Assembly: GCA_022828595.1 (NCBI GenBank) | Contig: JAKGHH010000005.1 | Span: 60,507,655 to 60,571,654 of the forward strand | Source: Nelumbo lutea | Taxonomy: Eukaryota > Streptophyta > Magnoliopsida > Proteales > Nelumbonaceae | Reading direction: 5' to 3' | Length of the DNA: 64,000 bases | Part shown: in pieces, positions 19,083-53,540 of the stretch | Numbering within the stretch: position 1 is the stretch's first letter | Layout: every line of letters begins with the position of its first letter | Program-made: the position numbers and the translations under genes | Notes under the pieces: generated by a model | What the model was told of the DNA's origin: nothing | Databases searched by the model: none | The model's input: only the letters and a program-made list of their open reading frames with translations

Positions 19083-19084
19083 AT

Positions 19085-19102: not shown

Positions 19103-19167
19103 AACGCTTCAAAAAGCCTCCCCCCAAACTTCGATACCCCCTTTTTTCTTCAAAAAACCCAACACTC

Positions 19168-26259: not shown

Positions 26260-27131
26260 CGCATGAGATCGAGACGTTGGAAGGGAGGTAGGTACCCCAC
26301 GCCTAAACGTTGGCAACCAAAGAAAGTACTATTAATGAGTTCGGGATTGATGATGTCCTCAATAATGTTTGAAATGATGATGTTATTGAAGAGGACGAAC
26401 CAGGAGAGCACGTGTCCATCATCATACTCGTGAACTCTTCAAAACTTACCAACCACTCTCATCGGAGTCAACACCACGAATATCTTCTTTTAGTCTGCGA
26501 TCAAACATTTATCGTCCCCTAGATTTCGGAGAACCTCTTCCAACTCTTCTATTGATATTGACTTGTTCCCATCTATGTTAAATATCTTAGATGCATGTCT
26601 CGGATCCTCTACAACCTTTTCCAAATGAACCCTATTCGTGTTCAAGTCAATAAACTTGTTTAAATCAACATCCCCAAGCCGTCCAAATCAATCACCTTCA
26701 CCATCTTCCACTATTCTTCTTCCTCGTCGGGTTTCCCTGTTCTGCATTATCCAACCCAAGTAAAAGCAAAAATAGATTTGGCTAGAAAAAGGCATATGAA
26801 TGGAAAGCTAAATTAAACAAGAAGCAGCGGGGACCCGACAGGTGGCTAAGATTCCGACCACCAGCTGGAGACACAGGAAGCACGGTGGGGAGGCCTCTAG
26901 ATTCAAACCTTTGGCTCTCATAAAAGATAGAAGACATGGAAAGCTTGAAAAATTGCATTAATTAATGTTATAATTACATAATATTTATAGATTGAAATAG
27001 ATATCAAACCTATTCAAACTCAAACTCTTAGACTCTGTGTAGGACTCCATGTAAGATATCTTAATCCATCTCAAAATCTATCCTAACATAACAAATTCTA
27101 TCTTATTAAGAAACTCCTATCACTCTTATCA
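26260..27131 (-). repeat. Array unit 1 (cut by the gap)
   Basis: Pol tail 26260-26333, CML 26334-26759, leader, a degenerate PBS at 26912 and LTR about 26926-27131. The PBS/LTR junction is altered (GGCTCTCATAAAAGATAG). Confidence 0.75.
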
Positions 27132-28204
27132 TAACAACCCTTACGTATATCCGGACTGCGGCTTACCAAAAGCTAGGAGCCTGGTATTATATTGCCCGAA
27201 TCAAGAGACGCAACTTCCGAGCTGACAATCTTGGAATTTAGAAAATTATGGTGCTTGAGACCGATCTAGATAAATTCGAACCGAATTGGGAGGTCCTTAT
27301 AGAATATGACAAGTGCTCGGTGAAAGGACTCACGAGCTCAAGATGTTGGAAGGGAGGTAGGTACCCCGCGCCTAGAACGTTGGCAACCAATGAAAGTACT
27401 ATTTATGAGTTCGGGATTGATGATGTCTTAAATAATGTTTGAAGTGATGATGTTATTGGAGATGATGAACAAGGAGGGCGCGTGTCCATCATCATACTCT
27501 TTAACTCTTCAAAACTTACCAACCCATCTCCATCGGAATCAATTCCATGAATGATTTTCTTATAGTCTACGATCAAACATTTATCGTCCCTATACTTCTG
27601 AATACCTCCTCCAACTTTTCTAATGATATGGACTCGTTCCCATCTACGTTATATATAATAGACGCGTGTCTCAGATTCTCTACAACCTTTTCCGAATGAA
27701 CCATATTCGTGTTCAAGTCAATAAATTGTTTAAATTAATAAAACCAATTGCCATCCAAATCTTCCACCTTCGCCATCTTCTACAACTCTTCTTCCTTCAC
27801 CGGGTTTCCCAAGTTCATCCATTATTGAACCCAAGTAAAAGCTAAACTAGAATTGGCTATAAAAAAGAGATATGTGTGGAAATTTAAATTAAACAAGAAA
27901 CAGCAAGGACCCGGTGGGTGGTTACGATTCCGGCCACCAGCTAGAGACATTGGAAGCACGGTAGGTGGCCTCTAGATTCAATCCTTTGGCTCTCATACCA
28001 TGATAGAAGACAAGGAAAGTTTAAAAATTTGCATTAATGAGTTTTTTAATTACATATTTATATATTGAAACAGATATCAAACCTAATAAAACTAAAACTC
28101 TTAGACTCTATGTAGGACTGTTTGTAGTCCATCGTAATCTATCTCTAACTCTATCAAAACATAACAAATTCTATCTTATAAAGAACTGCTAATAGCCCTT
28201 ATCA
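27132..28204 (-). repeat. Array unit 2
   Basis: Complete layout: pol tail 27151-27403 (plus strand), CML 27404-27836 with frameshifts, PBS 27988-28000, LTR 28001-28204 (204 bp). Confidence 0.8.
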
Positions 28205-29279
28205 TAACAGCCCATACATATATCAGGACAGCGGCATACCAAAAGCTAGTAGCCTGGTATTATAATGCCCGAGTCAAGAGACGCTACTTCCGAGTTGACA
28301 ATTTTGGATTTTAGAAAGTTATGATGTTTGAGACCGATCTAGGTAACTTGGGACCGAATTGGGAAGGTCCTTATAGAGTATGACAAATGCTCGGTGAAAG
28401 GATGCACGAGCTCGAGACGTTGGAAGAGAGGGAGGTAACTCGCGCTTAGAATGTTGGCAACCAATGAAAGTACTATTTATGAGTCCGGGATTGATGATGT
28501 CCTAAATAATGTTTGAAGTGATGATGTTATTGGAGAGGACAACCAGGAGGGTGCATGTCCATCATCATACTCTTGAACTCTTCAAAACTTACGAACCCAT
28601 CTCCATCGGAATCAACCCCACGAATGCTCTTCTTATAGTCTGCAATCAAACACTTATCATCCCCCAAACATCTGAGTACCTCCAACTCTTCTAGTGATAT
28701 GGATCCGTTCCCATCTACGTTAAATACCATAGACGCGTGTCTCAGATCCTCTACAACCTTTTCCGAATGAACCCAATTCATGTTCAAGTCAATAATCTTG
28801 TTTAAATCAATAAACCCATTGCCGTCAAAAATCAACCACCTTCGCCATGTTCTACAAATCTTCTTCCGTCACCGCGTTTTCCAAATTCTCCATTATCAAA
28901 CCCAAATAAAAGATTAACTATAATTGGCTATAAAAAAAGATATGAATGGAAATCTAAATTAAACAAGAAACAGCGATGACCCGGCGTGTGGCTACTTATT
29001 CCGGCCACCCGCTATAGACATTGGAAGCACGGTGGGAGTCCTCTAGATTCAAACATTTGGCTCTCATACCATGATAGAAGACAAAGGAAAGCTGGAAAAT
29101 TTGCATTAATGAGTATTATAATTACATCATATTTATAGATTGAAACAGATATCAAATCTATTCAAACTCAAACTCTTAGACTCTATGTAGGACTCTATGT
29201 AGTTTTTCTTAATCCATCTCAAACTGTATGCTAACATAACAAATTCTATCTTATTAAGAACTCATATTCACCCTTATCA
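28205..29279 (-). repeat. Array unit 3
   Basis: Pol tail 28226-28476, CML 28477-28906 (one open frame covers 28527-28835), PBS 29059-29071, LTR 29072-29279. Confidence 0.8.
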
Positions 29280-30306
29280 TAACAGCCCATACATAGATCC
29301 AGACTGCGACTTATCAAAAGCTAGTAGCCTGTTATTATAATGCCCGAGTCAAGAGACGCTACTTCCGAGTTGACAATCTTGGACTTTAGAAGTTATGGTG
29401 TTTCAGAACGATCTAGGTAAGTTGGGACCGAATTGGGAAGGTACTTATAAAGGGAGGTAGGTACCCCGTGCCTAGAACGTTGGCAACTTAAGAAAGTACT
29501 ATTTATGAGTTCGGGATTGATGATGTCTTAAATAATGTTTGAAGTGATGATGTTATTGGAGATGATGAACAAGGAGGGCGCGTGTCCATCATCATACTCT
29601 TTAACTCTTCAAAACTTACCAACCCATCTCCATCGGAATCAATTCCATGAATGATTTTCTTATAGTCTACGATCAAACATTTATCGTCCCCTAGATTTCA
29701 GAGTACCTCTTCTAACTCTTCTATTGATATGGACCCGTTCCCATCTACATTAAATATCATAGATGTGTGTCTCGGATCTTCTACAATGTTTTCTGAATGA
29801 ACCCTATTCGTGCTCAAGTCAATAAACTTGTTTAAATCAATAAACCAATTTCCGTCCAAATCAACCACTTTCGCCATCTTGTACAACTCTTCTTCTATCG
29901 CCGGGTTTCCCAAGTTCTCCATTATCGAACCCAAGTAAATGCTAAACTACATTTGGTTATAAAAAAGAGATATGAATGGAAATCTAAATTAAACAAGAAA
30001 TAGTGAGGACTCGGTGGGTGGTTACTATTCCGACCACCTGCTAGAGACATAGGAAGCACGGTAGGAGGCCTCAAGATTCAAACCTTTTGCTCTCGTACCA
30101 TGATAGAAAACACGGAAGGTTTGAAAATTTGCATTAATGAGTGTTTTAATTACATCAGAATTATAGATTGAAACAGATATCAAACCTATTCAAACTAAAA
30201 TTCTTAAACTCTATGAGGACACTATGTTGTCCATTTTAATCCATTTCTAACTCTATCAAAACATAACAAATTCTATCTTATAAAGAAGAGCTAATCACCC
30301 TAATCA
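29280..30306 (-). repeat. Array unit 4
   Basis: The pol tail is internally shortened (29301-29503). CML 29504-29936 keeps its N-terminal frame open because the usual amber codon is TAC here. PBS 30088-30100, LTR 30101-30306. From 29937 rightwards it is nearly identical to unit 20. Confidence 0.8.
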
Positions 30307-30946
30307 CAACAGCCCATACTTATATCCAGACTGTGACTTACCAAAAGCTAGTAGTACGGTATTATAATGCCCGAGTCATGATACGCTACTTCCGATTTGA
30401 AAATATTGGACTTAAGAAAGTTATGGTACTTGAGACCGATATAGGTAAGTTGTGACCGAATTGGGAAGGGACTTATAGAGTATGACAAGTGCTCGGTGAA
30501 AGGACGTACGCGTTTGAGACGTTGGAAGGAAGGTAGGTACCCAGCGCCTAGAATGTTTCCAATTGCCGTCCAAATCAACCACCTTCGCCATCTTTTACAA
30601 CTATTCTTCCATCGTTGGGTTTCCCAAGTTTTCCATTATCAAACCCAAGTAAAAGCTAAACTAAAGTTGACTATAAAAAAGAGATATGAATGGAAATCTA
30701 AATTAAACAAGAAATAGCAAGGATTTGGCGGGTGGTTAATATTCCGACCACCTGCTAGAGACATAGGAAGCACGGTAGGAGGCCTCTAGATTCAAACCTT
30801 TGGCTCTCATACCATGATAGAAGACAAGGAAAGTAAAATTTGCAATAACGAGTGTAGGATTCTATGTAGTCTTTTTTAATCCATCTCAAACTCTATTCCA
30901 CCATAACAAATTCTATCTGATTAAGAACTGTTAATAACCCTTATTA
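30307..30946 (-). repeat. Array unit 5 (short)
   Basis: The pol tail (30328-30558) is fused directly to the CML N-terminal part (30560-30648), so EF-hands 3 and 4 are deleted. The LTR (30815-30946) lacks its middle including the TATA box. Same deletion joints as unit 21. Confidence 0.8.
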
Positions 30947-32020
30947 TAACAACCCATACATATATTCGGACTGCGGCTTAAGAAATGCTAGTAGCCTGGT
31001 ATTATAATGCCCGAGGCCAGAGATGCTACTTCCGAGTTGACAATTTTGGAATTTAGAAACTTATGGTGATTGAGACCGATTTAGGTAAGTTGGGACCGAA
31101 TTGGGAAGGTCTTTATAAAGTATGACAAATGCTCGGTGAAGGGACGCACGAGCTCGAGACGTTGGAAGGGAGGTAGGTACCCCGCGCCTAGAACGTTGGC
31201 AACCTAAGAAAGTACTATTAATGAGTTCGGGATTGATGATGTCTTAAATAATGTTTGAAGTGATGATGTTATTAAAGAGGACGAACCAGAAGAGCGCGTG
31301 TTCATCCTCATACAATTGAACTCATCAAAATTTACCAACCCATCTCAATCAGAATCAACCCCACGAATGATCTTATAATCTGCGATCAAACACATATCAA
31401 CCCACAGACTTCTGAGTACATCCTCCAACTCTTCTAGTGATATGGACCCGTTTCCATCTACATTAACTATCATAGACGTGTGTCTCAGATTCTCGACAAC
31501 TTTTTCCGAATCAACGCTATTCGTGTTCAAGTTAATAAACTTGTTTAAATCATCAAACTCATTGTCATCCAATTCAACCACCTTCGCCATGTTCTACAAA
31601 TCTTCTTCCGGCGCCGGGTTTCCCAAATTCTCCATTATCGAACCCAAGTAAAAACAAAACAAGAATTGGCTATAAAAAAGAGATATGAATGAAAATGAAA
31701 ATTAAACAAGAAACAACGATAACCCGTCGGGTGGCTACGAATCCGGTCACCCGATAGAGACATAGGTAGCACGGTGGGAGGCCTCTAGATTCAAACCTTT
31801 GGCTCTCATACCATGATAGAAGACAAGGAAAGTTTAAAAATTTGCATTAATGAGTGTTTTAATTACGTCATATTTATAAATTGAAATAAATATCAAACCT
31901 GTTCAAATTGAAACTCTTAGACTCTATGTACGAATCTATGTAGTCTATCTTAATCCATCTCAAATTCTACCCTAACATAACCAATTCTATCTTATTAAGA
32001 ACACCCAATCACACTTATCA
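30947..32020 (-). repeat. Array unit 6
   Basis: Pol tail 30968-31218, CML 31219-31648, PBS 31801-31813, LTR 31814-32020 (207 bp). Confidence 0.8.
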
Positions 32021-32918
32021 TTACTGCCTGAAATATATCCGGACTGCGGTTTACCAAAAGCTAGTAGCCTGGTATTATAATGCCTGAGTCAAGAGACGCT
32101 ACTTCCGACTTGACAATCTTGGATTTTAGAAAATTATGATGCTTGAGGCCGATCTAGGTAAATTGGGACCGAATTGGGAAGGTCCTTATAGAATATGGCA
32201 AGTGCTCAGTGAAAGGATGCACGAGCTCGAGACGTTGGAAGACATGTAGGTACCTCGCACTTAGAACGTTGGCAACCAATGAAGTTACTATTTATGAGTT
32301 CGGGATTGATGATGTCCTAAATAATATTTGAAGTGATGATGTTATTGGAGAGGATGAACCAGGAAGGCGTGTGTCCGTCATCATACTCTTTAACTCTTCA
32401 AAACTTACCCACCGAATGAACCCTATTTGTGTTCAAGTCAATAAACTCAATCAATAACCCATTGTCGTCCAAATCAATCACCTTCGCCATCTTCTACAAC
32501 TCTTCTTCCGTCGCCGGGTTTCCCATGTTCTGCATTATCCAATCCAAGTAAAAGATAGAATAGAAATAGCTAAAAAAAGCATATGAATGGAAAGCTAAAT
32601 TAAACAAGAGGCAGTAGGGACCCGACGGGTGGCTACGATTCTGACCACCAGCTGGAGACACAGGATGCACAGTGGGAGGCCTCTAGATTCAAACCTTTGG
32701 CTCTCATACCATGATAGAAGACAAGGAAAGTTTGGAAAATTGCATTAATTAATGTTATAATTACATCATATTTATAGATTGAAACAGATATCAAACCTGT
32801 TCAAATTGAAACTCTTAGACTCTATGTACGAATCTATGTAGTCTATCTTAATCCATCTCAAATTCTACCCTAACATAACCAATTCTATCTTATTAAGAAC
32901 ACCCAATCACACTTATCA
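32021..32918 (-). repeat. Array unit 7
   Basis: Pol tail 32041-32293. CML 32294-32548 has lost EF-hands 3 and 4 by a deletion near 32410, a joint similar to unit 22. PBS 32699-32711, LTR 32712-32918. Confidence 0.8.
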
Positions 32919-35745
32919 TAACAGTCCATACATATATATGGACTACAATTTACCAAAAGCTAATAGTGTGGTATTATAATGACTAGTCAAGATACGCTAC
33001 ATCCGAATTGACAATCTTGTATTTTAGAAAGTTAAGATGTTTGAAACCGATTTATGTAAGTTGGGACCGAATTGGGAAGGTCCTTATAAAGAATGACAAG
33101 TGCTCGGAGAAGGGACGCACGAGCTTGGGACGTTGGAAGGGAGGTGGCTACCCCGCGCCTAGAACGTTGGCAACCAATGAAAATACTATTTATGAGTTCG
33201 GGATTGATGATGTCCTCAATAATGTTTGAGGTGATGCTGATATTGGAGAGGACAAACCAGGAGTGCGCGTGTCCTTCATCACACTCTGTAATTTTTCAAA
33301 ATTTACAAACCCATCTCCATCGGAATCAACCCCACGAATGATATTCTTATAGTTTGTGATCAAACACTTATTGTCCCCTAGACTTCTGAGTACCTACTCC
33401 AACTCTTCTAGTGATATGGACCCGTTCCCATTTACGTTGAATAGCATAGACGTGTGTCTCGGATTGAAAGAATGGTAGGATCCATCTAATGGACGCCATA
33501 AAGGTTGCGGAATGGGTGGGGCAAATTTCAAAAATTTCCTACCTTCTCCCAACTGGGAATCATATTCCCTGAATTTAGAATACAATATTCAAGGATCTAC
33601 TTGAACCCTAATCAAACCAGATCTGTACCAAAAGATAAATGGGAGGATTATACCTGATCCGGAGAAGCAGTATCTCCCAAAGTTGGTGTTCACGCCCAAA
33701 GAATGCTCCAAGATCTGTTCCTGCTGAAGATGACACAGCTGTGGATGGAATAGAACCAGCAGGGTGCGTCCTACACACTGGATCCTTCACAAGAATCCCC
33801 TGGATGTACTAAACACTGAATTCTCTCAGTCTTTCTTGCAAGACTGATGTCAAGAACTGGTTTCTTGACTTTCTTTTCTGCAAAGATCAAGTCTTGCAAC
33901 AATGCAGATGGCGACGGCAGGAGGAGATTTCCAGAAACGAAAAGGCTGAACTGTTTTCTTTTCTGGAGAGAATGAGATCTAATCTCAATTCGCAGGAACC
34001 CTTCTTGCTTACAAAACCTCTTGGATCGAAATCTGATTTCTCTCTCTTGGTTCATTCGAAAATCTCCTCCCTTTCTTCTTGATTAAGAAATCTCCTAATT
34101 AGGAGTTATCCCAATCCAAATCAGTATTTGGATAGGGGATAATCTTAATCCCTTTCCCAGATAGAGTTAGCTTACTCCTGATCTTATCAGGAGGTTACCA
34201 GATTCAAATCTGATTTGAATTTGGTCTCTAAGAGTGGATAAGGCTAAGAGCCCAATCCTTTTTGCTAACTTCAATCTCAAATTCGCCCCAAGGATGGGTG
34301 ATCATATCAGCCCACCTCGAAATGGGCTTCTGCCCCATTAAGTGTTCAGTGTCTAATTACTTTCCAATCTGCTGCCCAGTTGGGCATCTTTGTATGGCAT
34401 GGGACCCAAGCATTGATCTACACACCAGCCACATGGGTTCGTCCCAGCCTTTAATACAAGGCCCAACCGAATTCACTAAAAAACTCAATGAACCCCTTGA
34501 GTCCATCATATGGACCCTATGGGCCCAACACTTACCCTAAGTTGTCCATGGGCCAAGCCATCTTATAAAAACCCAGGGACTGTGGGCAGGTGCAAGATTA
34601 GCCCATCAGGTATTATCCTCAATGGTCTTACACTTAACCTCTCAGCCCTTAATGATCAAGCACTGCCCAACAAGAGAGGACCTCTCCCTCGGTTGCAAGG
34701 AACAGTGTCGCACTGTCCTCTCACATGGATCCCGGGAATTAAAACCATTTGCAAACAATTTGAAATCGTACATATATATATAAATATATTAATTTTGCAA
34801 AAAAAACAAAATTCCAACGATTGAAATCAACTGCCGGCAGTTTGGTTTCCATCAGAGAGAGTGCATTCCCGATCATTACCCTTTGTCCGACAAAGTGGCT
34901 GATTCTGTCACTATGACCACCCACTCAGATTAATTCTCAAACTGCCCCAACATACCCAGGTTTTGATCCCCGCTAAGGATCTCACTGATTTGCATATCAA
35001 AGGTAGCCTGATCCAACACCTAGTGAAGTGTCATAATCGAGTCTAGGGTCAGGTGTAACTTTCCAGTTTTGCCCATCTATCTCCAAGGTCCAGGGTAAGA
35101 CTGGAAATCTGGTCCGGTTCAAGGATTCAAGTAATCCCATGCTGTATGTGCCTCGGGTCTTACCCTGATGGCTGAGACAGGCCATCCCAACACTTGGTGG
35201 CACACCAGTATCAGCCTTGGCAGGATAAATCTCCCCAGACTTATCCAACGGCTGTGAACATTTAAAACTAACATGAGTCTCTACAAATGTCCAGTTTTAG
35301 GGTTTTACACAGAATTAAACCAAACAACATGAATCAAACATGCACTTTATTTATTTCCACTAAATAACAAAAGTACATCAAAATGATTGAAGCTAAGGGC
35401 ATACAAAACTGTCTAACACGGATCCTCTACATCCTTTTCCGAATGAACTCTATTCGTGTACAAGTCAATAAACTTGTTTAAATCAATAAACCAAATGCCG
35501 TGCAAATCAACCACCTTCGCCATGTTCTACAAATCTTTTTCTGGTGCCGGGTTTCCCAAGTTCTCCATTATCTAACCCAAGTAAAAGTTAAACTAGAATT
35601 GGCCAGAAAAAAGAGATATGAATGGAAATCTAAATTAAACAAGAAATAGCGAGGACTCAACGGGTGGTTACTATTCCCACCACCTGCTAGAGACATAGGG
35701 AGCACGGTAGGAGGCCTCCAGATTCAAACCTTTGGCTCTCATACC
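32919..35745 (-). repeat. Array unit 8, split by a solo LTR
   Basis: Pol tail 32940-33193. The CML starts at 33194, is interrupted at 33464 by the solo LTR and resumes at 35420-35580. The unit ends at its PBS (35733-35745), which is joined straight to the next CML copy with no LTR. Confidence 0.8.
33465..35419. mobile_element. Solo LTR of a large LTR retrotransposon, 5-bp target duplication
   Basis: A 1,955-bp block begins TGAAAGAATGG and ends GTCTAACA, with TG/CA termini. It is flanked by CGGAT on both sides (33460-33464 and 35420-35424). The flanking CML sequence joins perfectly once the block and one CGGAT are removed. No gag or pol domain is present, so it is a solo LTR left after LTR-LTR recombination, or a similar non-coding element. 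Orientation was not settled; the minus strand starting TGTTAGACAG looks more LTR-like. Confidence 0.8.
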
Positions 35746-36419
35746 ATCAGAATCAACCCCACGAATGATTTTTTATTGTCTCGGATCAAACACTTATCGT
35801 CCCCCAGACTTCTGAGTACGTCCTCCAACTCTTCTAGGGATATAGACCCATTCCCATCTACGTTAACTATCTTAGACGCGTGTCTCGGATCCTTTACAAC
35901 TTTTTCCGAATGAACCCTATTCGTGTACAACTCAACAAACATGTCTAAATCAATAACCCATTGCCGTCCAAATCAATCACATTCGCCATCTTCTACAATT
36001 CTTCTTCGTCACCAGGTTTCCCATGTTCAGCATTATCCAACCCAAGTAAAATCTAAAATAGAATTGAATAAAAGAAAAAACATATGAATGGAAAGTTAAA
36101 TTAAACAAGAGGCAGTGGGGACCCGACGGTTGGCTACGATTCCGACCACCATCTGGAGACATAGGAAGCACGATGGGAGGCTTTTAGATTCAAACCTTTG
36201 GCTCTCATACCATGATAGAAGAGAAGGAAAGTTTGTCAGATTGCATTAATTAATCTTATAATTACATCATATATATAGATTGAAACAGATATCAAACTTA
36301 TTCAAACTCAAACTCTTAGACTCTATGTAGGACTGTTTGTAGCCTATCTTAATCCATCTCAAAATCTATCGTAACATAACAAATTATATCTATGTAAGAA
36401 CTGCTAATAACCCTTATCA
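35746..36419 (-). repeat. Array unit 9 (no pol tail)
   Basis: CML 35746-36046 begins abruptly inside EF-hand 4. PBS 36200-36212, LTR 36213-36419. Confidence 0.75.
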
Positions 36420-37495
36420 TAACAGCCCATACATATATCCGAACTGCGGTTTACAAAAAGCTAGTAGCCTGGTATTATAATGCCCGAATGAAGTGTCGCT
36501 ACATCCGAATTGACAATCTTGTATTTTAGAAAGTTATGATGTTTGAAACCGATTTATGTAAGTTGGGACCGAATTGGGAAGGTCCTTATAGAGTATGGAA
36601 AGTGTTCGGTGAAGGGATGCACGATCTCGAGACGTTGGAATAGAGGTAGGTAACTCGTGCCTAGAACGTTGGCAACCAATGAAAATACTATTTATGAGTT
36701 CGGGATTGATGATGTCCTAAATAATGTTTGAGGTGATGCTGATATTGGAGAGGACAAACCAGGAGTGCGCGTGTCCATCATCATACATTTGAACTCTTCA
36801 AAACTTACCAACCCATCTCCATCGCAATCAACCCCACGAATGATTTTCTTATAATCTGTGATCAAACATTTATCGTCCCCAGATTTCTGAGTATCTCCTC
36901 CAACTCTTCTAGTGATATGAACCCGTTCCCATCTACGTTAAATATCCTCGGCGCGTTTCTCAAATTCTCTACAATGTTTTCCAAATCAACGCTATTCGTG
37001 TTCAAGTCAATAATCATGTTTAAATCAATAAACCCATTGCCGTCCAAATCAACCACCTTCGCCATGTTCTACAAATCTTCTTCCATCACCGCGTTTCCCA
37101 AATTCTCCATTATCAAACCCAAATAAAAGATTAACTATAATTGGCTATAAAAAAGAGATATGAATGGAAATCTAAATTAAACAAGAAACAGCGATGACCC
37201 GGCGTGTGGCTACTATTCCGGCCACCCGCTATAGACATTGGTAGCACGGTGGGAGTCCTTTAGATTCAAACCTTTGGCTCTCATACCATGATAGAAGACA
37301 AGGAAAGCTTGAAAATCTGCATTAATGACTGTTAGAATTACATCATATTTATAGATTGAAACAGATATCAAACATATTCAAACTCAAACTCTTAGACTCT
37401 ATGTAGGACACTATGTAGTCTATCTTAATCCATCTCAAACTCTATCCTAACATAACAAATTCTATCTTATTAAGAACTCCTAATCACCCTAATCA
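36420..37495 (-). repeat. Array unit 10
   Basis: Pol tail 36441-36693, CML 36694-37121 (EF-hand 2 reads DLDGNGFIDLN, without the Trp of most units), PBS 37276-37288, LTR 37289-37495. Confidence 0.8.
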
Positions 37496-38571
37496 TAACA
37501 GCCCATACATATATCCGAACTGCGGCTTACCAAAAGCTAGTAGCCTGGTATTATAATGCCCAAGTCAAGAGATGCTACTTCCGAGTTGACAATCTTGGTT
37601 TTTAGAAGGTTATGATGCTTGAGACCGATCTAGGTAAGTTGGGACCGAATTGGGAATGCCCTTATAGAGTATGGCAAGTGCTCGGTGAAGGGATGCACAA
37701 GCTCGAGACGTTGGAAGAGAGGTTGGTACGTCGTGCCTAGAACGTTGGCAACCTAAGAAAGTACTATTTATGAGTTCGGGATTGATGATGTCCTCAATAA
37801 TGTTTGAAGTGATGATGTTATTGGAGAGAACGAACCAGGAAAGTGTGTGTCCATCATCATACTCTTGAACTCTTCAAAACTTACCAACCCATCTCCATCG
37901 GAATCAACCCCACAAATGATCTTCTTATAATCTGCGATCAAACATTTATCGTCCCCAGATTTCTGAGTACCTCCTCCAACTCTTCTAGTGATATGGACCC
38001 GTTCCCATCTACGTTAAATATCATAGACGCGTGTCTCGGGTGCTCTACAACCTTTTTCGAATGAACCCAATTCATGTTCAAGTCAATAAACTTGTTTAAA
38101 TCAATAAACCAATTGCCGTCCAAATCAACCACCTTCGCCATCTTCTACAACTCTTCTTCCATTGCTGAGTTTCACAAATTCTCCATTATCGAACCCAAGT
38201 AAAAGCAAAACTAGAATTGGCAATGAAAAAGAGATATGAGTGGAAATCTAAATTAAATAAGAAACAACAAGGACCAGGTGGGTGGCTACGATTCTGGCCA
38301 CCTGCTAGAGACATAGGAAGCACGGTGGGAGGCCTCTAAATTAACACCTTTGGCTCTCATACCATGATAGAAGACAAGGAAAGCTTGAAAATCTGCATTA
38401 ATGAGTGTTATAATTACATCATATTTATGGATTGAAACAGATATCAAACCTATTCAAACTCAAACTCTTAGACTCTATGTACGAATCTATGTAGTCTATC
38501 TTAATCCATCTCAAATTCTATCCTAACATAACCAATTGTATCTTACTAAGAATTGCTAATAACCCTTATCA
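37496..38571 (-). repeat. Array unit 11
   Basis: Pol tail 37517-37768, CML 37769-38199, PBS 38352-38364, LTR 38365-38571. Confidence 0.8.
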
Positions 38572-39647: not shown

Positions 39648-40626
39648 TAACAGCCCATACATATATCCGGACTGCGGTTTACCAAAAGCTAGTAGCCTGG
39701 TATTATAATGCTCGAGTCAAGAGACGCTACTTCCGAGTTGACAATCTTGGATTTTAGAAAGTTATGATGCTTGAGACCGATCTAGGTAACTTGGGACCGA
39801 ATTGGGAAGGTCCTTATAGAGTATGACAAATGCTCGGTGAAAGGATGCACGAGCTCGAGACGTTGGCAATGATGTTATTTGAGAGGACGAACCAGGAGAG
39901 CGCGTGTCCATCATCATACTCTTGAACTCTTCAAAATTTACCAACCCATCTCCATTGGAATCGACCCCACAAATGATCTTCTTATAATCTGCGACCAAAC
40001 ATTTATTGTCCCCCAGACTTCTGAGTACCTCCCCAAACTATTCTAGTGATATGGAACCGTTCGCATCTACGTTAAATATCATAGATGCGTGTCTCAAATT
40101 TTCTACAACCTTTTCTGAATGAACTCTATTCGTGTTCAAGTCAATAAATTGTTTAAATCAATAAACCAATTGCTGTCCAAATCAACCACCTTCGCCATTT
40201 TCTACAACTCTTCTTCCATCGCCGGATTTCCCTAGTTCTCCATTATCGAATCCAAGTAAAAGCAAAACTAGAATTGGCTATAAAAAAGAGAAATGAATGG
40301 AAATCTAAATTAAACAAAAAACAATGAGGACTCGGTGGTTGGCTACGATTCTGGTAACATGCTAGAGACATAGGAAGCACGGTGGGATGCCTCTAGATTG
40401 AAACCTTTGGCTCTCATACCATGATTGAAGACAAGGAAAGTTTGAAAATTTGCATTAATGAGTTTTAATTACGTCATATTTATAGATTGAAACAGATATC
40501 AAACCTATTCAAACTTAAACTCTTAAACTCTATGTACGAATCTATGTAGTCTATCTTAATCCATCTCAAATTCTATCCTAACATAACCAATTGTATCTTA
40601 CTAAGAACACCTAATCACACTTACCA
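39648..40626 (-). repeat. Array unit 13
   Basis: The pol tail (39669-39867) is truncated at its 3' end and fused to CML 39868-40257. PBS 40409-40421, LTR 40422-40626. Confidence 0.8.
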
Positions 40627-42551: not shown

Positions 42552-43181
42552 AATTTACCAACCCATCTCCATTATCATACTATTGAACTCTTCAAAATTT
42601 ACCAACCCATCTCCATCGGAATCAACCCCACGAATGCTCTTCTTATAGTCTGCAATCAAACACTTATCATCCCCCAAACATCTGAGTACCTCCAACTCTT
42701 CTAGTGATATGGATCCATTCCCATCTACGTTAAATATCATAGACGCGTGTCTCGGATCGTCTACAACCTTTTTCGAATGAACCCAATTCATGTTCAAGCC
42801 AATAAATTTATTTAAATCAATAAACCAATTGCCGTCCAAATAAACCACCTTCGCCATCTTCTACAACTCTTCTTCCATCGTCGGGTTTCCCAAATTCTCC
42901 ATTATCGAACCCAAGTAAAAGCTAAACTATAATTGGCTATAAAAAAAGAGATATTGATGGAAATCTAAATTAAACAAGAAATAGCGAGGACTCGACAGGT
43001 GGCCACTATTCCGACCACCTGCTAGAGACATAGGAAGCATGGTAGGAGGCCTCTAGATTCAAACCTTTGGCTCTCATACCATGATAGAAGACAAGGAAAG
43101 TTTGAAAATTTGCATTAATGAGTGTTTTAATGCCCGAATTATAATGCAGTCCACACATAAATCTGGATTCAAACCTTATCA
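42552..43181 (-). repeat. Array unit 16 (no pol tail, rearranged LTR)
   Basis: CML 42552-42915, PBS 43069-43081. The LTR (43082-43181) is interrupted after the GAGTGTTTTAAT block by a piece of pol-tail-like sequence. Confidence 0.7.
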
Positions 43182-44258: not shown

Positions 44259-45336
44259 TAACAGTCCATACATATATATGGACTACGGCTTACGAAAAAC
44301 TAGTAGCCTGGTATTATAATGCCCGAGTCAAGAGACGCTACTTCCGAGTTGACAATCTTGGATTTTAGAAAATTATGATGCTTGAGGCCGATCTAGGTAA
44401 ATTGGGACCAAATTGGGAAGGTTTCTTATAGAATATGGCAAGTGCTCGGTGAAAAGATACACGAGCTCGAGATGTTGGAAAAGAGGTAGTTACCTCGCGC
44501 CTAGAATATTGGCAACCAATGAAAGTACTATTTATGAGTTCGGGATTGATGATGTCTTAAATAATGTTTGAAGTGATGATGTTATTGGAGATGATGAACA
44601 AGGAGGGCGCGTGTCCATCATCATACTCTTTAACTCTTCAAAACTTACCAACCCATCTCCATCGGAATCAACCCCACGAATGATCTTCTTATAGTCTGCG
44701 ATCAAACACTTATCGTCCGCCAGATTTCTAAGTACCTCCTCCAACTCTTCTAGTGATATGGATACGTTCCCATCTACGTTAAATATCATAGACGCGTGTC
44801 TCGAATTCTTTACAACATTTTCTAAATGAACCCAATTCGTGTACAAGTCAATAAACTTGTTTAAATCAATAAATCAATTGCCGTCCAAATCGACCACCTT
44901 CACCATCTTTACAACTCTTTTTCCACTGCCGGGTTTTCCAAGTTCTCCATTTATCAAACCCATGTAAAAGCTAAACTAGAATTGGCTATAAAAAAGAGAT
45001 ATGAGTGGAAATCTAAATTAAACAAAAAACAGCAAAGACTCGGCGGTTGGCTACAATTCCGATAACCCACTAGAGACATAGGAAGCACGGTGGGATGCCT
45101 CTAGATTCAAACCTTTGGCTCTCATACCATGATAGAAGACAAGGAAAGTTTGAAAATTTGCATTAATGAGTGTTTTAATTACATCATATTTATAGATTGA
45201 AACAGATATCAAACTTATTCAAACTCAAACTCTTAGACTCTATGTAGGACTGTTTGTAGCCTATCTTAATCCATCTCAAAATCTCTCCTAACATAACAAA
45301 TTCTATCTGATTAAGAACTGTTAAAAGCCCTTATCA
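44259..45336 (-). repeat. Array unit 18
   Basis: Pol tail 44280-44533. CML 44534-44961 has a 104-codon open frame spanning EF-hands 3 and 4. PBS 45117-45129, LTR 45130-45336. Confidence 0.8.
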
Positions 45337-46412
45337 TAACAGCCCATACATATATCAGGACTGCGGCATACCAAAAGCTAGTAGCCTGGTATTATAATGC
45401 CCGAGTCAAGAGACGCTACTTCCGAATTGACAATTTTGGATTTTAGAAAGTTATGATGTTTGAGACCGATTTAGGTAAATTGGACCAAATTGCGAAGGTA
45501 TTTATAGAGTATGGAAAGTGCTCGGTGAAGGGATGCACGAGCTCGAAATGTTGGAAGAGATGTAGGTACCTCGCGCCTAGAATGTTGGCAACCAATGAAA
45601 GTACTATTTATGAGTCCGGGATTGATGATGTCCTAAATAATATTTGAAATGATGATGTTATTGGAAAGAACGAACCAAGAGAGTGCATGTCCATCACCAT
45701 ATTCTTGAACTCTTCAAAACTTACCAATCCATCTCCATCGGAATCAACCCCACGAATGATCTTCTTATAGTCTGCGATCAAACACTTATCGTCCGCCAGA
45801 TTTCTAAGTACCTCCTCCAAATCTTCTAGTGATATGGACCCGTTTCCATCTACGTTAAATATCATAGACGCTTTTATCAGATTCTCTACAATGTTTTCCG
45901 AATGAACCCTATTCGTGCTCAAGTCAATAAACTTGTTTAAATCAATAAACCAATTTCCGTCCAAATCAACCACTTTCGCCATCTTGTACAATTCTTCTTC
46001 TATCGCCGGGTTTCCCAAGTTCTCCATTATCGAATCCAAGTAAAAGCTAAACTAGAATTGGATATAAAAAAGAGATATGAATGGAAATCAAAATTAAAGA
46101 AGAAATAGCAAGGACCCGGCGAGTGATTACGATTCCGGCCACCTACTAGAGACATTGGAAGCACAGTAGGGGGCCTCTAGATTCAAGCCTTTGACTCTCA
46201 TACCATGATAGAAGACAAGGAAAGTTTGAAAATTTGCATTAATGAGTGTTTTAATTACATCATATTTATATATTGAAACAGATATCAAACCTATTCAAAC
46301 TAAAGCTCTTAGACTCTATGTAGGACTGTTTGTAGTTTATCTTAATCCATCTCAAAATCTATTATAACATAACAAATTCTATATGATTAAGAACTGCTAA
46401 TAATCCTTATAA
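45337..46412 (-). repeat. Array unit 19 (most intact CML)
   Basis: Pol tail 45358-45608, CML 45608-46038, PBS 46192-46204 (one extra change, GACTCTCATACCA), LTR 46205-46412. Confidence 0.8.
45608..46027 (-). CDS. Captured calmodulin-like (CML25/26-like) ORF, longest intact copy
   Basis: A 139-codon ORF from ATG 46027. It starts MENLGNPAIEEEL, the exit helix after a lost EF-hand 1. EF-hand 2 is DLDGNWFIDLNK, with Trp and Lys where Gly and the bidentate Glu belong, so probably not calcium-binding. EF-hand 3 is NVDGNGSISLED (first Asp replaced, last position Asp). EF-hand 4 is DSDGDGLVSFEE, canonical. The last ~20 residues (FPITSSFQILFRTSSIPDS) are antisense retroelement sequence. Most other copies have an amber at the codon that is TAC here. 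The parent family are small plant Ca2+ sensors of ~150-190 residues with four EF-hands. The TRIM-like LTR upstream on this strand could promote it. Whether it is expressed is unknown; it may be a pseudogene. Confidence 0.5.
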   Translation of the reverse strand: MENLGNPAIEEELYKMAKVVDLDGNWFIDLNKFIDLSTNRVHSENIVENLIKASMIFNVDGNGSISLEDLEEVLRNLADDKCLIADYKKIIRGVDSDGDGLVSFEEFKNMVMDMHSLGSFFPITSSFQILFRTSSIPDS

Positions 46413-47466
46413 TAACAGCCCATACATATATTCGGACTGCGGCTTAGGAAAAGCTAGTAGCCTGGTATTATAATGCCCGGGTCAAGAGACACTATTTCCG
46501 AATTGAGAATTTTGGACTTTAGAAAGTTATGGTGGTTGACACTGATCTAGGTAAGTTGGGACCGAATTGGGAAGGTCCTTAGAGAGTACGACAAGTGCTC
46601 GGTGAAGGGACGCACGAGCTTGAGACGTTGGAAGACATGTAGGTATCTCACACTTAGAATGTTTGCAACCAATGAAAGTACTATTTATGAGTTCGGGATT
46701 GATGATGTCCTGAATAATGTTGGAAGTGATGATGTTATTGGAGAAAATGAACTAGGAAGGCGCGTGTCCATCACCATATTCTTGAACTCTTCAAAACTTA
46801 TCAACCCATCTCCATCGGAATCAACCCCACGAATGATCTTATTATAGTCCCCCAGATTTCTGAGTATCTCCTCCAACTCTTCAAGTGATATGGACCCGTT
46901 CCCATCTACGTTAAATATCATAGACGCGTGTCTCGGATCCTCTACAATGTTTTCCGAATGAACCCTATTTGTGTTCAAGTCAATAAATTTCTTTAAATCA
47001 ATAAACCAATTGCCGTCCAAATCAACCACCTTCGCCATCTTCTACAACTCTTCTCCATCGTTGGGTTTCCCAAGTTCTCCATTATCGAACCCAAGTAAAT
47101 GCTAAACTACATTTGGTTATAAAAAAGAGATATGAATGGAAATCTAAATTAAACAAGAAATAGTGAGGACTCGGTGGGTGGTTACTATTCCGACCAACTG
47201 CTAGAGACATAGGAAGCACGGTAGGAGGCCTCTAGATTCAAACCTTTTGCTCTCGTACCATGATAAAAAACAAGGAAAGTTTGAAAATTTGCATTAATGA
47301 GTGTTTTAATTACATCAGAATTATAGATTGAAACAGATATCAAACCTATTCAAACTAAAATTCTTAAACTCTATGAGGACACTATGTTGTCCATTTTAAT
47401 CCATTTCTAACTCTATCTAAACATAACAAATTCTATCTTATAAAGAAGAGCTAATCACCCTAATCA
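46413..47466 (-). repeat. Array unit 20
   Basis: Pol tail 46433-46687. CML 46688-47095 contains a 117-codon open frame (start at 47038) with a small in-frame deletion between EF-hands 3 and 4. PBS 47248-47260, LTR 47261-47466. From about 47096 it matches unit 4. Confidence 0.8.
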
Positions 47467-48109
47467 CAACAGCCCATACTTATATCCAGACTGTGACTTA
47501 CCAAAAGCTAGTAGTACGGTATTATAATGCCCGAGTCATGATATGCTACTTCCGATTTGAAAATATTGGACTTAAGAAAGTTATGGTGCTTGAGACCGAT
47601 ATAGGTAAGTTGTGACCGAATTGGGAAGGGACTTATAGAGTATGACAAGTGCTCAATGAAAGGACGCACGCGTTTGAGACGTTGGAAGGAAGGTAGGTAC
47701 CCAGCGCCTAGAACGTTTCCAACTTCCGTCCAAATCAACCACCTTCGCCATCTTCTACAACTCTTCTTCCATCATCGGGTTTCCCAAGTTCTCCATTATC
47801 GAACCCAAGTAAAAGCTAAACTAGAATTGGCTATAAAAAAGAGATATGAATGGAAATCAAAATTTAACAAGAAATAGCGAGGACCCGGCGGGTGGTTACG
47901 ATTCCGGCCACCAGCTAGAGACATTGGAAGCACGGTAGGTGGCCTCTAGATTCAATCCTTTGGCTCTCATACCATGATAGAAGACAAGGAAAGTTTAAAA
48001 ATTTGCATTAATGAGTGTAGGATTCTATGTAGTCTTTTTTAATCCATCTCAAAATCTATTATAACATAACAAATTCTATATGATTAAGAACTGCTAATAA
48101 TCCTTATAA
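47467..48109 (-). repeat. Array unit 21 (short)
   Basis: Pol tail 47488-47719 fused to the CML N-terminal part 47720-47809. The LTR (47975-48109) lacks its middle. Near-duplicate of unit 5. Confidence 0.8.
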
Positions 48110-49004
48110 TAACAACCCATACATATATCCGGACTGCGGCTTAGGAAAAGCTAGTAGCCTGGTATTATAATGCCCGAGTCAAGAGATGCTATTTCCGAGT
48201 TGACAATCTTGGTATTTAGAAAGTTATGGTGCTTGTGACCAATCTAGGTAAATTGGGAAGGTCCTTATAGAGTATGACAAGTGCTCAGTGAAAAGATGCA
48301 CGAGCTCGAGACGTTGGAAGGGAGGTTGGGGCCCCGCGCCTAGAACGTTGGCAACTAAACAAAAGTACTATTTATAAGTTCGGGATTGATGATGTACTAG
48401 ATTATGTTTGATCTGATGATGTTATTTGAGAGGACGAACCTGGAGAGCGCGCGTCCATCATCATACTCTTGAACTCCTCTACACATACCCACCCAATCAA
48501 CCCAATTTGTGTTCAAGTCAATAAACATGTTTAAATCAATAACCCATTGTCGTCCAAATCAATCACCTTCGCCATCTTCTACAACTCTTCTTCCGTCGTC
48601 GGGTTTCCCATGTTCTGCATTATCCAATCCAAGTAAAAGATAGAATAGAAATAGCTAAAAAAAAGCATATGAATGGAAAGCTAAATTAAACAAGAGGCAG
48701 TAGGGACCCGACGGGTGGCTACGATTCCGACCAACTGCTAGAGACATAGGAAGCACGGTAGGAGGCCTCAAGATTCAAACCTTTTGCTCTCGTACCATGA
48801 TAGAAAACAAGGAAAGTTTGAAAATTTGCATTAATGAGTGTTTTAATTACATCAGAATTATAGATTGAAACAGATATCAAACCTATTCAAACTAAAATTC
48901 TTAGACTTTATGTAGGCCTATTTGTAGTCTATCTTAATCCATCTCAAAATCTATCCTAACATAACGAATTCTATGTGATTAACAACTGCTAATAACCCTT
49001 ATCA
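48110..49004 (-). repeat. Array unit 22
   Basis: Pol tail 48131-48373. CML 48374-48632 carries the same type of internal deletion as unit 7. PBS 48785-48797, LTR 48798-49004. Confidence 0.75.
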
Positions 49005-50073
49005 TAACAGCCTATACATATATCCGGACAACGAATTAACAAAAGATAGTAGCCTGGTATTATAATGCCCGAGTCAGGAGACACTATTTCCGAATTGAGA
49101 ATATTGGACTTTAGAAAGTTATGGTTGTTGACACCGATCTAGGTAAGTTGGGACCAAATTGGGAAAGTCCTTATTAAGTATGACAAGTGCTCGGAGAAGG
49201 GACGCACGAGGTTGGGACGTTGGAAGCGAGGTAGGTACCCCGAGCCTAGAACGTTGGCAACCTAAGAAAATACTATTTATGAGTTTGAGATTGATGATGT
49301 CCTCAATAATGTTTGAAGTGATGATGTTATTGAAGAGGACAAACCAGGAGAGCGCGTGGCCATCATCATACTCTTGAACTTTTCAAAACTTACCAACCCA
49401 TCTCCATCGGAATCAACCCCACTAGTGATATTCTTATAATCTGCGATCAAACATTTATCGTCCCCCAGATTTTTGAGTACCTTTTCCAACTCTTCTAGTG
49501 ATATGGACCCGTTCACATTTACGTTAAATATCATAGGCGTGTGTCTCGGATCCTCTACATCCTTTTCCGAATGAACCCAATTTGTGTTAAAGTCAATAAA
49601 CATGTTTAAATCAATAACCCATAGCAGTCCAAATCAATCACCTTCGCCATATTCTACAATTCTTCTTCCGTCGCCGAGTTTCGCATGTTCTGCAATATCC
49701 AACCCAAATAAAAGCTAAAATAGAATTGGCTAAAAAGCATATGAATGGAAAGCTAAATTAAACAAGAGGCTGCAGGGTCCCGACGAGTGATTACGATTCC
49801 GACCACCTGCTAGAGACATAGGAAGCACGGTAGGAGGCCTCTAGATTCAAACCTTTGGCTCTCATACCATGATAGAAGACAAGGAAAGTAAAATTTGCAA
49901 TAACGAGTGTTTTAATTACATCATATTTAAAGATTGAAACAGATATCAAACTTATTCAAACTCAAACTCTTAGACTCTATGTAGGACTGTTTGTAGCCTA
50001 TCTTAATCCATCTCAAAATCTATCGTAACATAAAGAATTCTATGTGATTAAGAACTGCTAATAACCTTTATCA
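49005..50073 (-). repeat. Array unit 23
   Basis: Pol tail 49025-49276. CML 49277-49708 has a 108-codon open frame at 49277-49603. PBS 49857-49869, LTR 49870-50073. Confidence 0.8.
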
Positions 50074-51016
50074 TAACAGCCCATATATATATCCGGACTG
50101 CGGATTACCAAAAGATAATAGCCTGGTATTATAATGCTAGAGTCAAAATACGCTACTTTCGATTTGACAATCTTGGACTTTAGAAAATTATGGTGCTTGA
50201 GACCGATCTAGGTAATTGGAACCGAATTGAGAAGGTCCTTATAAAGTATGACAAGTGCTCGGAGAAGGGACGCACGAGTTTGAGACGTTGGAAGGGAGGT
50301 AGTTACCCCGCTCCTAAAACGTTGGCAACATAAGATAGTATTATTTATGAGTACGTCCTCCAACTCTTATCTTATAGTATGCGATCAAACACTTATCTTC
50401 CCCCAGACTTCTGAGTACGTCCTCCAACTCTTCTAGTGATATGGACCCATTTCCATCTACGTAAACTATCATAGACGCGTGTCTCGGATCCTCTACAACT
50501 TTTTCCGAATGAACCTTATTCGTGTACAACTCAATTAACATGTTTTAATCAATAACCCAATGCCGTACAAATCAATCACCTTCGCCATCTTCTACAACTC
50601 TTCTTCCGTCGTCGGGTTTCCCATGTTCTGCATTATCCAATCCAAGTAAAAGATAGAATAGAAATAGCTAAAAAAAAGCATATGAATGGAAAGCTAAATT
50701 AAACAAGAGGCAGTAGGGACCCGACGGTTGACTACGGTTCCGACCACCAGCTGGAGACATAGGAAGCATGGTAATAGGCCTTTGGATTCAAACCTTTGGC
50801 TCTCATACCATGATAGAAGACAAGGAAAGTTTGAAAGTTTGCAATAATGAGTGTTTTAATTACATCAAATTTATAGATTCAAACAGATATCAAACCTATT
50901 CAACTAAAACTCTTAGACTCTATGCAGGACCGTTTGTAGTCTATCTTAATCCATTTGAAAATCTATCCTAACATAACGAATTCTATGTGATTAAGAACTG
51001 CTAATAACCTTTATCA
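50074..51016 (-). repeat. Array unit 24
   Basis: Pol tail 50095-50350 fused into CML 50351-50646 with part of EF-hand 4 lost. PBS 50798-50810, LTR 50811-51016. Confidence 0.75.
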
Positions 51017-51838
51017 TAACAGCCCATATATATATCCGGACTGCGGATTACCAAAAGATAATAGCCTGGTATTTCAATGCCCGAGTCAGGAGACACTATT
51101 TCCGAATTGAGAATTTTGGACTTTAGAAAGTTATGGTGGTTGACACTGATCTAGGTATGTTGGGACCGAATTGGGAAGGTCCTTAGAGAGTACCCTAGAT
51201 CTTCTTATAATCGGCGATCAAACATTTATCGTCCCCTAGATTTCAGAGTACCTCCAACTCTTCTAGTGATATGGATCCATTCCCATCTACGTTAAATACT
51301 ATAGACGCGTGTCTCGGATCGTCTACAACCTTTTCCGAATGAACCCAATTCATGTTCAAGTCAATAAACTTGTTTAAATCAATAAACCAATTGCCGTCCA
51401 AATGAACCACCTTCGCCATCTTCTACAACTCTTCTTCCTTTGCCGTGTTTATCAAGTTCTCTTTTATCGAACCCAAGTAAAAGCTAAACTAGAATTGGTT
51501 ATAAAAAAGAGATATGAATGGAAATCTAAATTAAACAAGAAATAGCGAGGACCCGGCGGGTGGCTACGATTCTGTCCACCCGCTAGAGACATAGGAAGCA
51601 CAGTGGGAGGTCTCTAGATTCAAACCTTTGGCTCTCATACCATGATAGAAGACAAGGAAAGTTTGAAAAATTGCATTAATGAGTGTTATAATTATATCAT
51701 ATTTATAGATTGAAACAGATATCAAACCTATTCAAACTCAAACTCTTACATTCTATGTAGTCTATCTTAATCCATTTCAAAGTCTATCATAACATAGCAA
51801 ATTATATTTTATTAAGAACTCTTAATCACCCTTATCAT
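51017..51838 (-). repeat. Array unit 25
   Basis: The pol tail (51038-51193) is truncated and joined to CML 51194-51476, which lacks EF-hand 4. PBS 51630-51642, LTR 51643-51838. Confidence 0.75.
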
Positions 51839-52833
51839 AACAGCCCATACATATATCCGAACTGCGGCTTACCAAAAGCTAGTAGCCTGGTATTATAATG
51901 CCCGAGTAGGGAGACGCTACTTCCGAGTTGACAATCTTGGACTTTAGAAAGTTATGGTGCTTGAGACCAATCTAGGTAAGTTAGGACCGTATTGGAAAGG
52001 TTCTTATAGAGTATGACAAGTGCTCAGTGAAGGGATGCACGAGCTCGAGACGTTGGAAGGGAGGTAGGTACCCTGCGTTTAGAACTTTGGCAACCTAATC
52101 AAGTACTATTTATGAGTTCAGGATTGATGATGTCTTCAATAATGTTTGAAGTGATGATGTTATTAAAGAGGACGAACCAGAAGAGCACGTGTCCATCATC
52201 ATACTCTTGAACTCTTCAAAACTTAACAACCCATCTCCATCGGAATCAACCACACGAATGATCTTCTTATTGTCTGCGATCAAACATTTATCGTCCCCCA
52301 GACTTCTGAGTACCTCCTCCAACTCTTCTAGTGATATGGATCCATTCGCATCTACGTTAAATATCATAGATGTGTGTCTCAGATCCTCTACAACCTTTTC
52401 CGAATCAACGTTGTTCATTTTCACATCAATAAATTTGTTTAAATCAATAAACCCATTGTCGTCTAAATCAACCACCTTCGCCATTTTCTACAACTCTTCT
52501 TCCATCGCCGGGTTTCCCAACTTCTCCATTATCGAACCTAAGTAAAAGTTAAACTAGAATTGGATATAAAAAAGAGATATGAATGGAAGTCTAAATGAAA
52601 CAATAGACAGCGGGGACCCAATGAGTGGCTATGATTCTTGCCTCCCGCCAGAGACATTGGAAGCATGGTGTGAGGCCTCTAGATTCAGACTTTTGGCTCT
52701 AATACTATGATTGATGATAAGGAAAGTTAGAAAGATTGCATTAATTAGTGTTATAATTACATCATATTTATTGACTAAAATAGAGATTAAACCTATTCAA
52801 AATGAAAATCTTAGACTCTTTCTAGGACTCTAT
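51839..52833 (-). repeat. Array unit 26 (LTR cut)
   Basis: Pol tail 51858-52113. CML 52114-52541 has a 124-codon open frame starting at 52484. A diverged PBS (GGCTCTAATACTA, 52695-52707) follows. The LTR (52708-52833) stops abruptly where gypsy pol sequence of the edge unit begins. Confidence 0.8.
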
Positions 52834-53140
52834 GGAGAGGCCAATGCGCTTTCAAAGTTGGCCAGTGCAGGTGACGTTACGAGAAGGACATGTGTTACAC
52901 GGGATCCACGATGGTTTTTGTGGAGGACACCGGGGGGAGGGGGCTGGGCGCTTGTCCAAAAGGCATTAAGGCAAGGATATTATTGGCCTATGATAAAGGT
53001 GGATGCACTTGAGCTCGTCCAAAAGTGTGATAACTACCAAAGGCACGCCAACCTATTTCACCAGCCCACCGCCGACCTCAAGTACTTATCCAATATTATC
53101 TAGAAGGAAGGTAGGTACCCCGTGCCTGGAACGTTGACAA
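52834..53140 (+). pseudogene. Ty3/gypsy pol fragment at the array edge
   Basis: EANALSKLAS at the start is the end of an archaeal-type RNase H. It is followed by WALVQKALRQGYYWPMIK, LELVQKCDNYQ and HQPTADLKYLS, the integrase zinc-finger block. A deletion then leads to the same pol 3' tail seen in the array (GGTAGGTACCCCGTGCCTGG). Other units lack the upstream part, so this copy is closer to a full gypsy element. Confidence 0.75.
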
Positions 53141-53512
53141 TATTATTGGAGAGCACGAGCTAGGAGAGAACGAGCCCATTATCATACTCTTGAAGTCTTC
53201 AAAACTTACCAACCCATCTCCATTGGAATGAACCCCACGAATGATCTTCTTACAGTCTACGATCGAACACTTATCGTCCCCTAGACTTTTGAACACCGCC
53301 TACAACTCTTCTGGTGATATGCACCCGTTCCCATCTGCATCAAATATCATAAACGCGTGTCTCAAATCCTTTACAACCTTTTCGGAATCAACTTCACTCA
53401 TGTTCAAGTCAATAAACTTGTTTAAATCAATAAACCCATTGTCGTCCAAATCAACCACCTTCACCATCTTCTGCAACTCTTCTTCTGTCGCTGGGTTTCC
53501 CAAGTTCTCCAT
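53097..53512 (-). pseudogene. Edge copy of the captured CML fragment
   Basis: Starts MENLGNPATEEELQKMVKVV. EF-hand 2 is DLDDNGFIDLNK, EF-hand 3 is DADGNGCISPEE (canonical ends), then an in-frame amber at 53300-53302, then EF-hand 4-like HSNGDGLVSFED. It is more family-like than the array copies (Gln where they have amber or Tyr, and EVDSEKVVKDLRHAF) but has its own lesions. It is therefore a sister rather than the direct ancestor. Its 5' breakpoint coincides with that in the array, and it abuts a gypsy polypurine stretch and LTR. Confidence 0.7.
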
Positions 53513-53540
53513 TATTGAACCCAACTAAGAAAGACCGACT

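Follow-up and report, generated by a model that had tools for sequence, protein, structure and literature searches.

How does a fragment of a host gene come to be repeated, together with retroelement sequences, in a long tandem array? This question is raised by a 64,000-bp stretch of chromosome 5 of the American lotus, Nelumbo lutea (C5:60507655-60571654; hereafter, the window), where an array at 26260-53537 is built from units that join a piece of the calcium-sensor gene CML25 to parts of two retroelements. We consider it reasonably probable that the array comprises about 23 head-to-tail copies of this chimera, that the gene fragment was acquired through a single template switch, that the array grew by unequal exchange, and that it is now silent and non-coding.

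From the parts of the unit, the boundaries of the captured fragment, the shared stop codons, the junctions that recur, and the surplus of C-to-T changes, all of which are observed, we infer the following steps. During reverse transcription, the leader of a small long terminal repeat (LTR) element would have been joined to CML25 mRNA at a short similar stretch. This product would then have become linked to a Ty3/gypsy pol end, after which tandem duplication would have begun from a single copy that already carried damage. Out-of-register exchange would then have copied multi-unit blocks, a process recorded by repeated junctions, while DNA methylation may have silenced and eroded the array.

The array and its chimeric unit

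We used one copy as the reference unit (36736-37810, minus strand; unit position p is window position 36735 + p). An nhmmer search with this copy returns 33 pieces in the window, 32 of which lie inside 26260-53537, all on the plus strand of the search and thus in one orientation. We give the strand of the array as minus, the sense of its CML and LTR parts. The 33rd piece is the pol tail of a separate element (24722-24989). Minus-strand self-comparison of the array gave no row at E 1e-20. A tandem array at 26260-53540, predicted from the letters alone, is therefore borne out. The predicted ~27 units proved too many: with a unit of ~1,075 bp, there are 22.8 unit-equivalents in series, or 23.2 including the right-end copy. 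Long head-to-tail arrays of a monomer are a hallmark of satellites. The array is absent from the listing of Tandem Repeats Finder, where the longest period is 500. Pieces at least 80% complete number 19 for the CML fragment, 26 for the leader, 25 for the primer-binding site (PBS), 20 for the LTR part, and 22 for pol. Pairwise identity, computed on the 23 pieces with at least 600 columns, averages 86.3% (range 79.9 to 95.4%).

On the minus strand, the unit runs from an LTR through a primer site and a leader into a sense CML fragment, followed by an antisense Ty3/gypsy pol tail; the original prediction gave the same order, read on the plus strand. In the reference unit, the LTR (37289-37500, minus) lacks its outer ~30 bp and was delimited by self-comparison and by cross-comparison with six dispersed elements (L011-L016), which also match the leader (37131-37275, minus) partly or wholly. 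Between these two lies the PBS, TGGTATGAGAGCC (37276-37288, minus). The CML25 fragment (36743-37120, minus, antisense to the plus strand) is recovered both by tblastn with CML25 and by blastn with the donor gene. The pol tail (37514-37770, plus) comes from the C-terminal side of integrase, contains a common stop, and was found by tblastn with the pol end of the element at 18-26 kb. The proposal that the array consists of copies of a gene-carrying retroelement holds insofar as each unit is a composite, but two elements and a gene contributed to it, and CML is in sense to the small LTR element and antisense only to pol.

The PBS is one base off the site that we take to be that of initiator-tRNA-Met. 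There are 36 sites in the array with at most four mismatches to this reference, 25 of them at the PBS position of the unit (one mismatch in 19, two in 2, and three in 4); the other 11 have four mismatches each and lie elsewhere. We rejected a more extended likeness of the PBS region to the whole initiator tRNA: good by eye, it mostly failed against shuffled sequences, its score being reached by at least 49 of 200 shuffles in 16 of the 25 copies and by at most 14 in nine. ARAGORN on the whole window and Rfam on 26000-54700 both returned nothing.

The LTR, primer site, and leader are all parts of a dispersed family of small LTR elements, presumably of Copia type given the form of its LTR and primer site. 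Each of the six fetched loci has two LTR stretches, 83.6 to 93.8% alike, within a span of 1.6 to 2.5 kb. L011, L013, and L015 are homologous to the unit as far as the CML junction (unit 395-398), and in L012, L014, and L016 the homology breaks off earlier; none of the six has a CML25 match. Between their LTRs, L013 carries a lipoyl-ligase domain (1942-2283; E 3e-14) and L016 a protein-kinase domain (2487-2993; E 2.6e-24). These host-like pieces suggest repeated gene capture by the family. The lipoyl-ligase-like frame has no relative among solved structures, and an open frame in L012 matches no Pfam family. The array retains no more than the 5' half of the small element, and its CML does not lie between two LTRs of one element.

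In matches of at least 67 residues, the pol tail and the corresponding end of pol in the Ty3/gypsy element at 18-26 kb are 47 to 58% identical. Four dispersed pol loci (L049-L052, 4 kb each) contain the pol tail and a piece of the integrase zinc-binding domain, and no CML, leader, or LTR part within those 4 kb. We tentatively label the source elements as Tat/Retand-like. The cut in the LTR, ~30 bp short of its natural end, led us to reject a clean nested insertion of the small element into pol.

Capture of CML25 and loss of coding capacity

An intact gene of 190 residues at C4:35474951-35475520 gives the best CML25 match in the genome; it is 93.7% identical to a Nelumbo nucifera protein (P0002) and fits the array better than either of two paralogues. 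The captured stretch extends from codon 65 to 14 nucleotides past the donor stop, and by eye the likeness continues for ~10 nucleotides more. Across 30 donor-to-window alignments, the same donor base marks the 5'-side end in 26 and the 3'-side start in 17. At the leader-CML junction, a fragment of a host gene residing on C4 thus stands right behind element sequence, as in gene transduction by LTR elements.

The CML copy at the right end of the array (53144-53525, minus) is the most donor-like, with 85.6% identity to the donor against at most 83.5% for the units. It shares the 5' boundary of the units and starts 6 nucleotides from their common 3' boundary. We defined diagnostic sites by at least 10 copies and 60% agreement; tblastn matches were dropped before counting if they began before query position 58, ran in plus orientation, or fell outside the array. 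The units agree on a residue unlike P0002 at 19 sites; of these, the right-end copy matches the donor at 11 and the units at 5, and differs from both at 3. Because of the five shared changes and the common boundaries, a single capture event appears likely, and the 11 sites at which the right-end copy keeps the donor state indicate that the founder of the units changed further.

At CML codon 82, 22 of 26 units have a stop, two have Tyr, one Trp, and one Val; the right-end copy has Gln. The common stop in pol is TAG in 20 of 23 pieces and TAA in one; the two pieces with AAG both carry junction J1 (see below). These shared stops, in CML and in pol, show that the founder was already dead before amplification. 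Variation in the CML fragment is about alike at the three codon positions (0.137, 0.117, and 0.140; the reference frame shifts late in the fragment). We predict that the array has no coding role.

Growth of the array

Four rearranged junctions mark the growth of the array. J1 (unit 1013 to 298; 30545-30580, ~30558) recurs near 47722, and J2 (unit 79 to 246; 32400-32425, ~32413) recurs near 48493 and in a second array described below. J3 (unit 556 to 84; 35740-35752) is also found in the second array, and J4 (unit 988 to 2; 39860-39880) is also read through by the N. nucifera protein P0004. Since J1 and J2 recur at a spacing of 16-17 kb, several units were duplicated together.

The unit tree has the same signal. 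In a tree of 23 units, those at an offset of ~17.1 kb are sisters: 27448 pairs with 44577 (support 96/95), 29548 with 46730 (100/100), and 30559 with 47720 (94/93), while 26378 and 43500 fall within one clade of four. Mean identity is 88.0% for the 14 pairs at an offset of 16.05-17.25 kb, compared with 86.2% for the other 239. The inner branches are short relative to the median end branch (0.056). We read this as fast first growth, followed by copying of multi-unit blocks through unequal exchange; rolling-circle amplification may have been the first step. Growth by recombination among neighboring copies, as originally proposed, is thus supported by the repeated junctions.

The array is interrupted by a 1,954-bp TG...CA insert (33465-35418), which we read as a solo LTR with a 5-bp target duplication, CGGAT. 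When joined, its flanks have a gapless match in the second array (92.6% over 121 bp), against 87 to 88% for other units there. The insert is therefore later than the unit it interrupts, whose uninterrupted counterpart survives in the second array.

A second array on chromosome 5

The second array (~C5:42019332-42024514) spans ~5 kb on the other strand and consists of six unit pieces longer than 500 bp and one of 79 bp. It carries J2 and J3 in unchanged order. A tree of both arrays was built from pieces with at least 500 columns, omitting those that flank the solo LTR. In this tree, B2236 of the second array is sister to 31264 and B4765 to 35744 (both 100/99), as expected from the junctions they share. 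For B4216, whose collinear counterparts fell below the length needed for this tree, the partner is 38889 (98/95).

Each array has an assembly gap at one end. The main array has 100 N immediately to its left (26160-26259). The second is bounded by a 100-N gap on one side and, ~70 bp away on the other, by a truncated LTR of the kind found at 53541-54522. The assembly was built from PacBio long reads, and a scaffolding error is possible because contigs with an N50 of 1.34 Mb were ordered by Hi-C (PMC9325450). The two arrays may therefore be one array split by such an error, in which case the left flank in the window is not the true neighbor of the array. If the stretch between the two gaps is flipped, the arrays join head-to-tail, with orientation, unit phase, and gaps in agreement. 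A misplaced array also predicts an LTR of the Ty3/gypsy element at 18-26 kb near the other gap, and none is present in the ~24 kb to its left. Because this matching prediction fails at the other breakpoint, the one-array reading stays a guess.

Searches of the genome, which give lower bounds (39 of 902 candidates scored at the DNA level and 150 of 208 at the protein level), detected the composite only in the two C5 arrays. Neither search revealed units scattered singly, the pattern named beforehand as evidence against a true tandem array. Within the same bounds, the unit lacks the abundance at many places that characterizes satellites genome-wide. The suggestion of a satellite in formation is thus a poor fit to a composite that is old, decayed, and found in only two places by these searches; its satellite-like array is local and decayed, and does not represent a spreading satellite. 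A degraded CML25-like piece in L047 (1962-2215; C6:48.09 Mb) has none of the other unit parts.

Age and predicted silencing

We find traces of the same kind of unit in N. nucifera. P0001 has two CML segments in series, as from a unit of like kind. P0004 reads through J4: among 12 alignments spanning that part, only the one with window 40151-39765 is gapless (84.5% of 129 residues). Because P0004 reads through a derived junction, the array, or at least the J4 rearrangement, is likely to be older than the split between N. lutea and N. nucifera, unless the gene model mimics the junction. This split is placed at 13.86 million years ago (PMC9325450). The N. nucifera proteins P0001 and P0004 are named CML25 and look like pieces of such an array, a warning for annotation.

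Transitions of the C-to-T type affect 13.6% of CG, 11.2% of CHG, and 6.5% of CHH sites, compared with 1.8% for A/T transitions. The excess at CG and CHG suggests long cytosine methylation, and we predict that the array is silent. The primer-site region ranks low in raw diversity. Selection on any part of the unit was nevertheless rejected, as no segment is conserved beyond its sequence context in windows of 25, 40, or 60 columns (lowest family-wise P 0.117).

Flanks of the array and other features of the window

At the right end, a pol fragment (52839-53105, plus) resembles the integrase zinc-binding domain (PF17921; E 7.2e-5; 23.3 bits, slightly under the curated cut-off of 25.5). Beyond the right-end CML copy lies a 982-bp LTR (TGATGAT...ATCATCA; 53541-54522, plus), which we read as the 3' LTR of a Ty3/gypsy element. 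Its 5-bp flanks mismatch each other.

To the left, 18200-26160 holds a separate Ty3/gypsy element with a 5' LTR and gag and pol frames (Pfam gag, RT, RNase H, and integrase). It is cut off by the N gap, its LTR is unlike that at 53541-54522, and it may not be the true neighbor of the array. Two antisense frames of this element that were compared with Pfam match no family, TRP28 included.

Elsewhere, the window contains a plant eIF4B3-like gene (12479-13858; Pfam eIF-4B) that shares 99% identity with an N. nucifera protein across 88% of the query. There is also an ARMH5-domain frame (4473-4946), a tandem pair of a 100-bp unit with 100% matching (25-221), and a zf-RVT frame (1648-2172), of a type found beside reverse transcriptases.

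Alternative explanations

Several observations weigh against a dead array that grew by unequal exchange after one capture by the small element. One copy (45611-46027, minus) is the only one whose CML frame is open from the ATG past the end of the donor (139 residues, with Tyr at codon 82); it is best read as a chance reversion. The short inner branches are also compatible with a burst, and the traces that would separate unequal exchange from rolling-circle amplification are mostly lost. The left edge of the array falls in the 100-N gap. At the right end, CML is flanked by a pol end and by a Ty3/gypsy LTR, an arrangement that capture by that element would explain about equally well. Finally, the array contains exact copies of 41 of the 570 21-mers in the donor stretch, which makes a role through RNA, including the originally suggested supply of CML-homologous RNA, conceivable.

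The right end leads to the first rival, in which a Ty3/gypsy element of the Tat/Retand kind captured CML in antisense between its pol and 3' LTR, and this repeat-prone 3' region expanded into a satellite, a route described for Ogre and other Tat elements. The pol tail adjoins antisense CML in the units as well as at the right end, where an LTR follows, and antisense frames and tandem repeats are known from such 3' regions. However, CML runs in sense straight from the leader of the small element, the unit holds the LTR and primer site of that other element, and the four pol loci are free of CML within their 4 kb. We therefore regard this origin as doubtful.

The alternation of LTR, PBS, internal part, and LTR on the minus strand could instead indicate a tandemly arrayed TRIM (terminal-repeat retrotransposon in miniature), that is, a mini LTR element with a gene fragment, chained through recombination of shared LTRs. 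The survey concerned reports such arrays in 35 of 43 plant genomes and gives 30 as the number of TRIMs with gene fragments (PMC4717578). Here, however, the internal part ends in a foreign pol tail and the repeats miss the natural LTR ends, which makes a TRIM array unlikely.

It is very unlikely that the array is a working source of small RNAs that tune CML25. Exact matches to the donor reach 30 nucleotides, not 40, and with the 41 shared 21-mers and an LTR in each unit that could drive reading in the CML sense, they favor such a role. The absence of segments conserved beyond sequence context and the similar variation at all codon positions argue against it, and there is no built-in hairpin because all units point one way.

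An assembly artefact could be suspected from the gap that borders the array on its left and from the further array piece that adjoins another gap on chromosome 5. It is highly improbable, given the ~14% difference between units, the internal insert with its target duplication, the published long-read assembly (PMC9325450), and the N. nucifera proteins P0001 and P0004 derived from the same kind of unit.

Comparison with known systems

The array combines features of three known systems. The 3' regions of Tat-clade elements are known to seed satellites (PMC7004042), and Retand elements have antisense frames in this region, with the TRP28 domain in 97% of clusters in a 2025 survey (PMC11963269). 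As in these Tat, Ogre, and Retand repeats, tandem growth in lotus took place beside a Ty3/gypsy pol end with an antisense frame by pol. Each unit has its pol tail and an LTR stands at the right end, the left part lying across the gap. In contrast to the published cases, the lotus unit adds a fragment of a host gene together with the LTR, primer site, and leader of a second element, its antisense frame has EF-hands instead of TRP28, and it occupies one or two places on one chromosome.

Some TRIMs form tandem arrays and some contain pieces of genes; the arrays reported from maize have few LTRs, most often three with two internal parts (PMC4717578). The alternation of a short LTR and adjacent primer site with internal parts is shared with lotus, as is the existence of small gene-carrying LTR elements. 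The lotus array differs in its ~23 units and in the foreign pol tail of each unit. Complete LTRs at both ends of the internal part are lacking, the LTR being cut by ~30 bp at the pol-tail junction.

Gene capture by LTR elements is exemplified by maize Bs1, and template switching is a described route (PMC13317346). The lotus unit resembles such captures in having an incomplete piece of a host gene behind element sequence; what sets it apart is the tandem amplification of that piece. In the main text of that gene-capture review, the word "satellite" does not occur (PMC13317346), and none of the open literature compared here reports a satellite unit that includes a captured piece of a gene, a statement limited to those sources.

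We classify the array as satellite-like and local, with a chimeric monomer drawn from two retroelements and one gene. We see as evenly balanced the wider proposition that a small lotus LTR family repeatedly captures host genes (CML25, a lipoyl ligase, and a kinase), and that one such capture, combined with a second retroelement, yielded a three-parent, locus-specific satellite monomer older than the split between the American and Asian lotuses. Many satellites cannot be traced to the sequence from which they began. In lotus, the donor, both retroelement sources, and several breakpoints within the array lie open to comparison, which allows the succession of capture, death, tandem growth, and decay to be worked out and dated across the two species. 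If true, the three-parent origin would add to these known systems a traceable path from host gene to satellite monomer.

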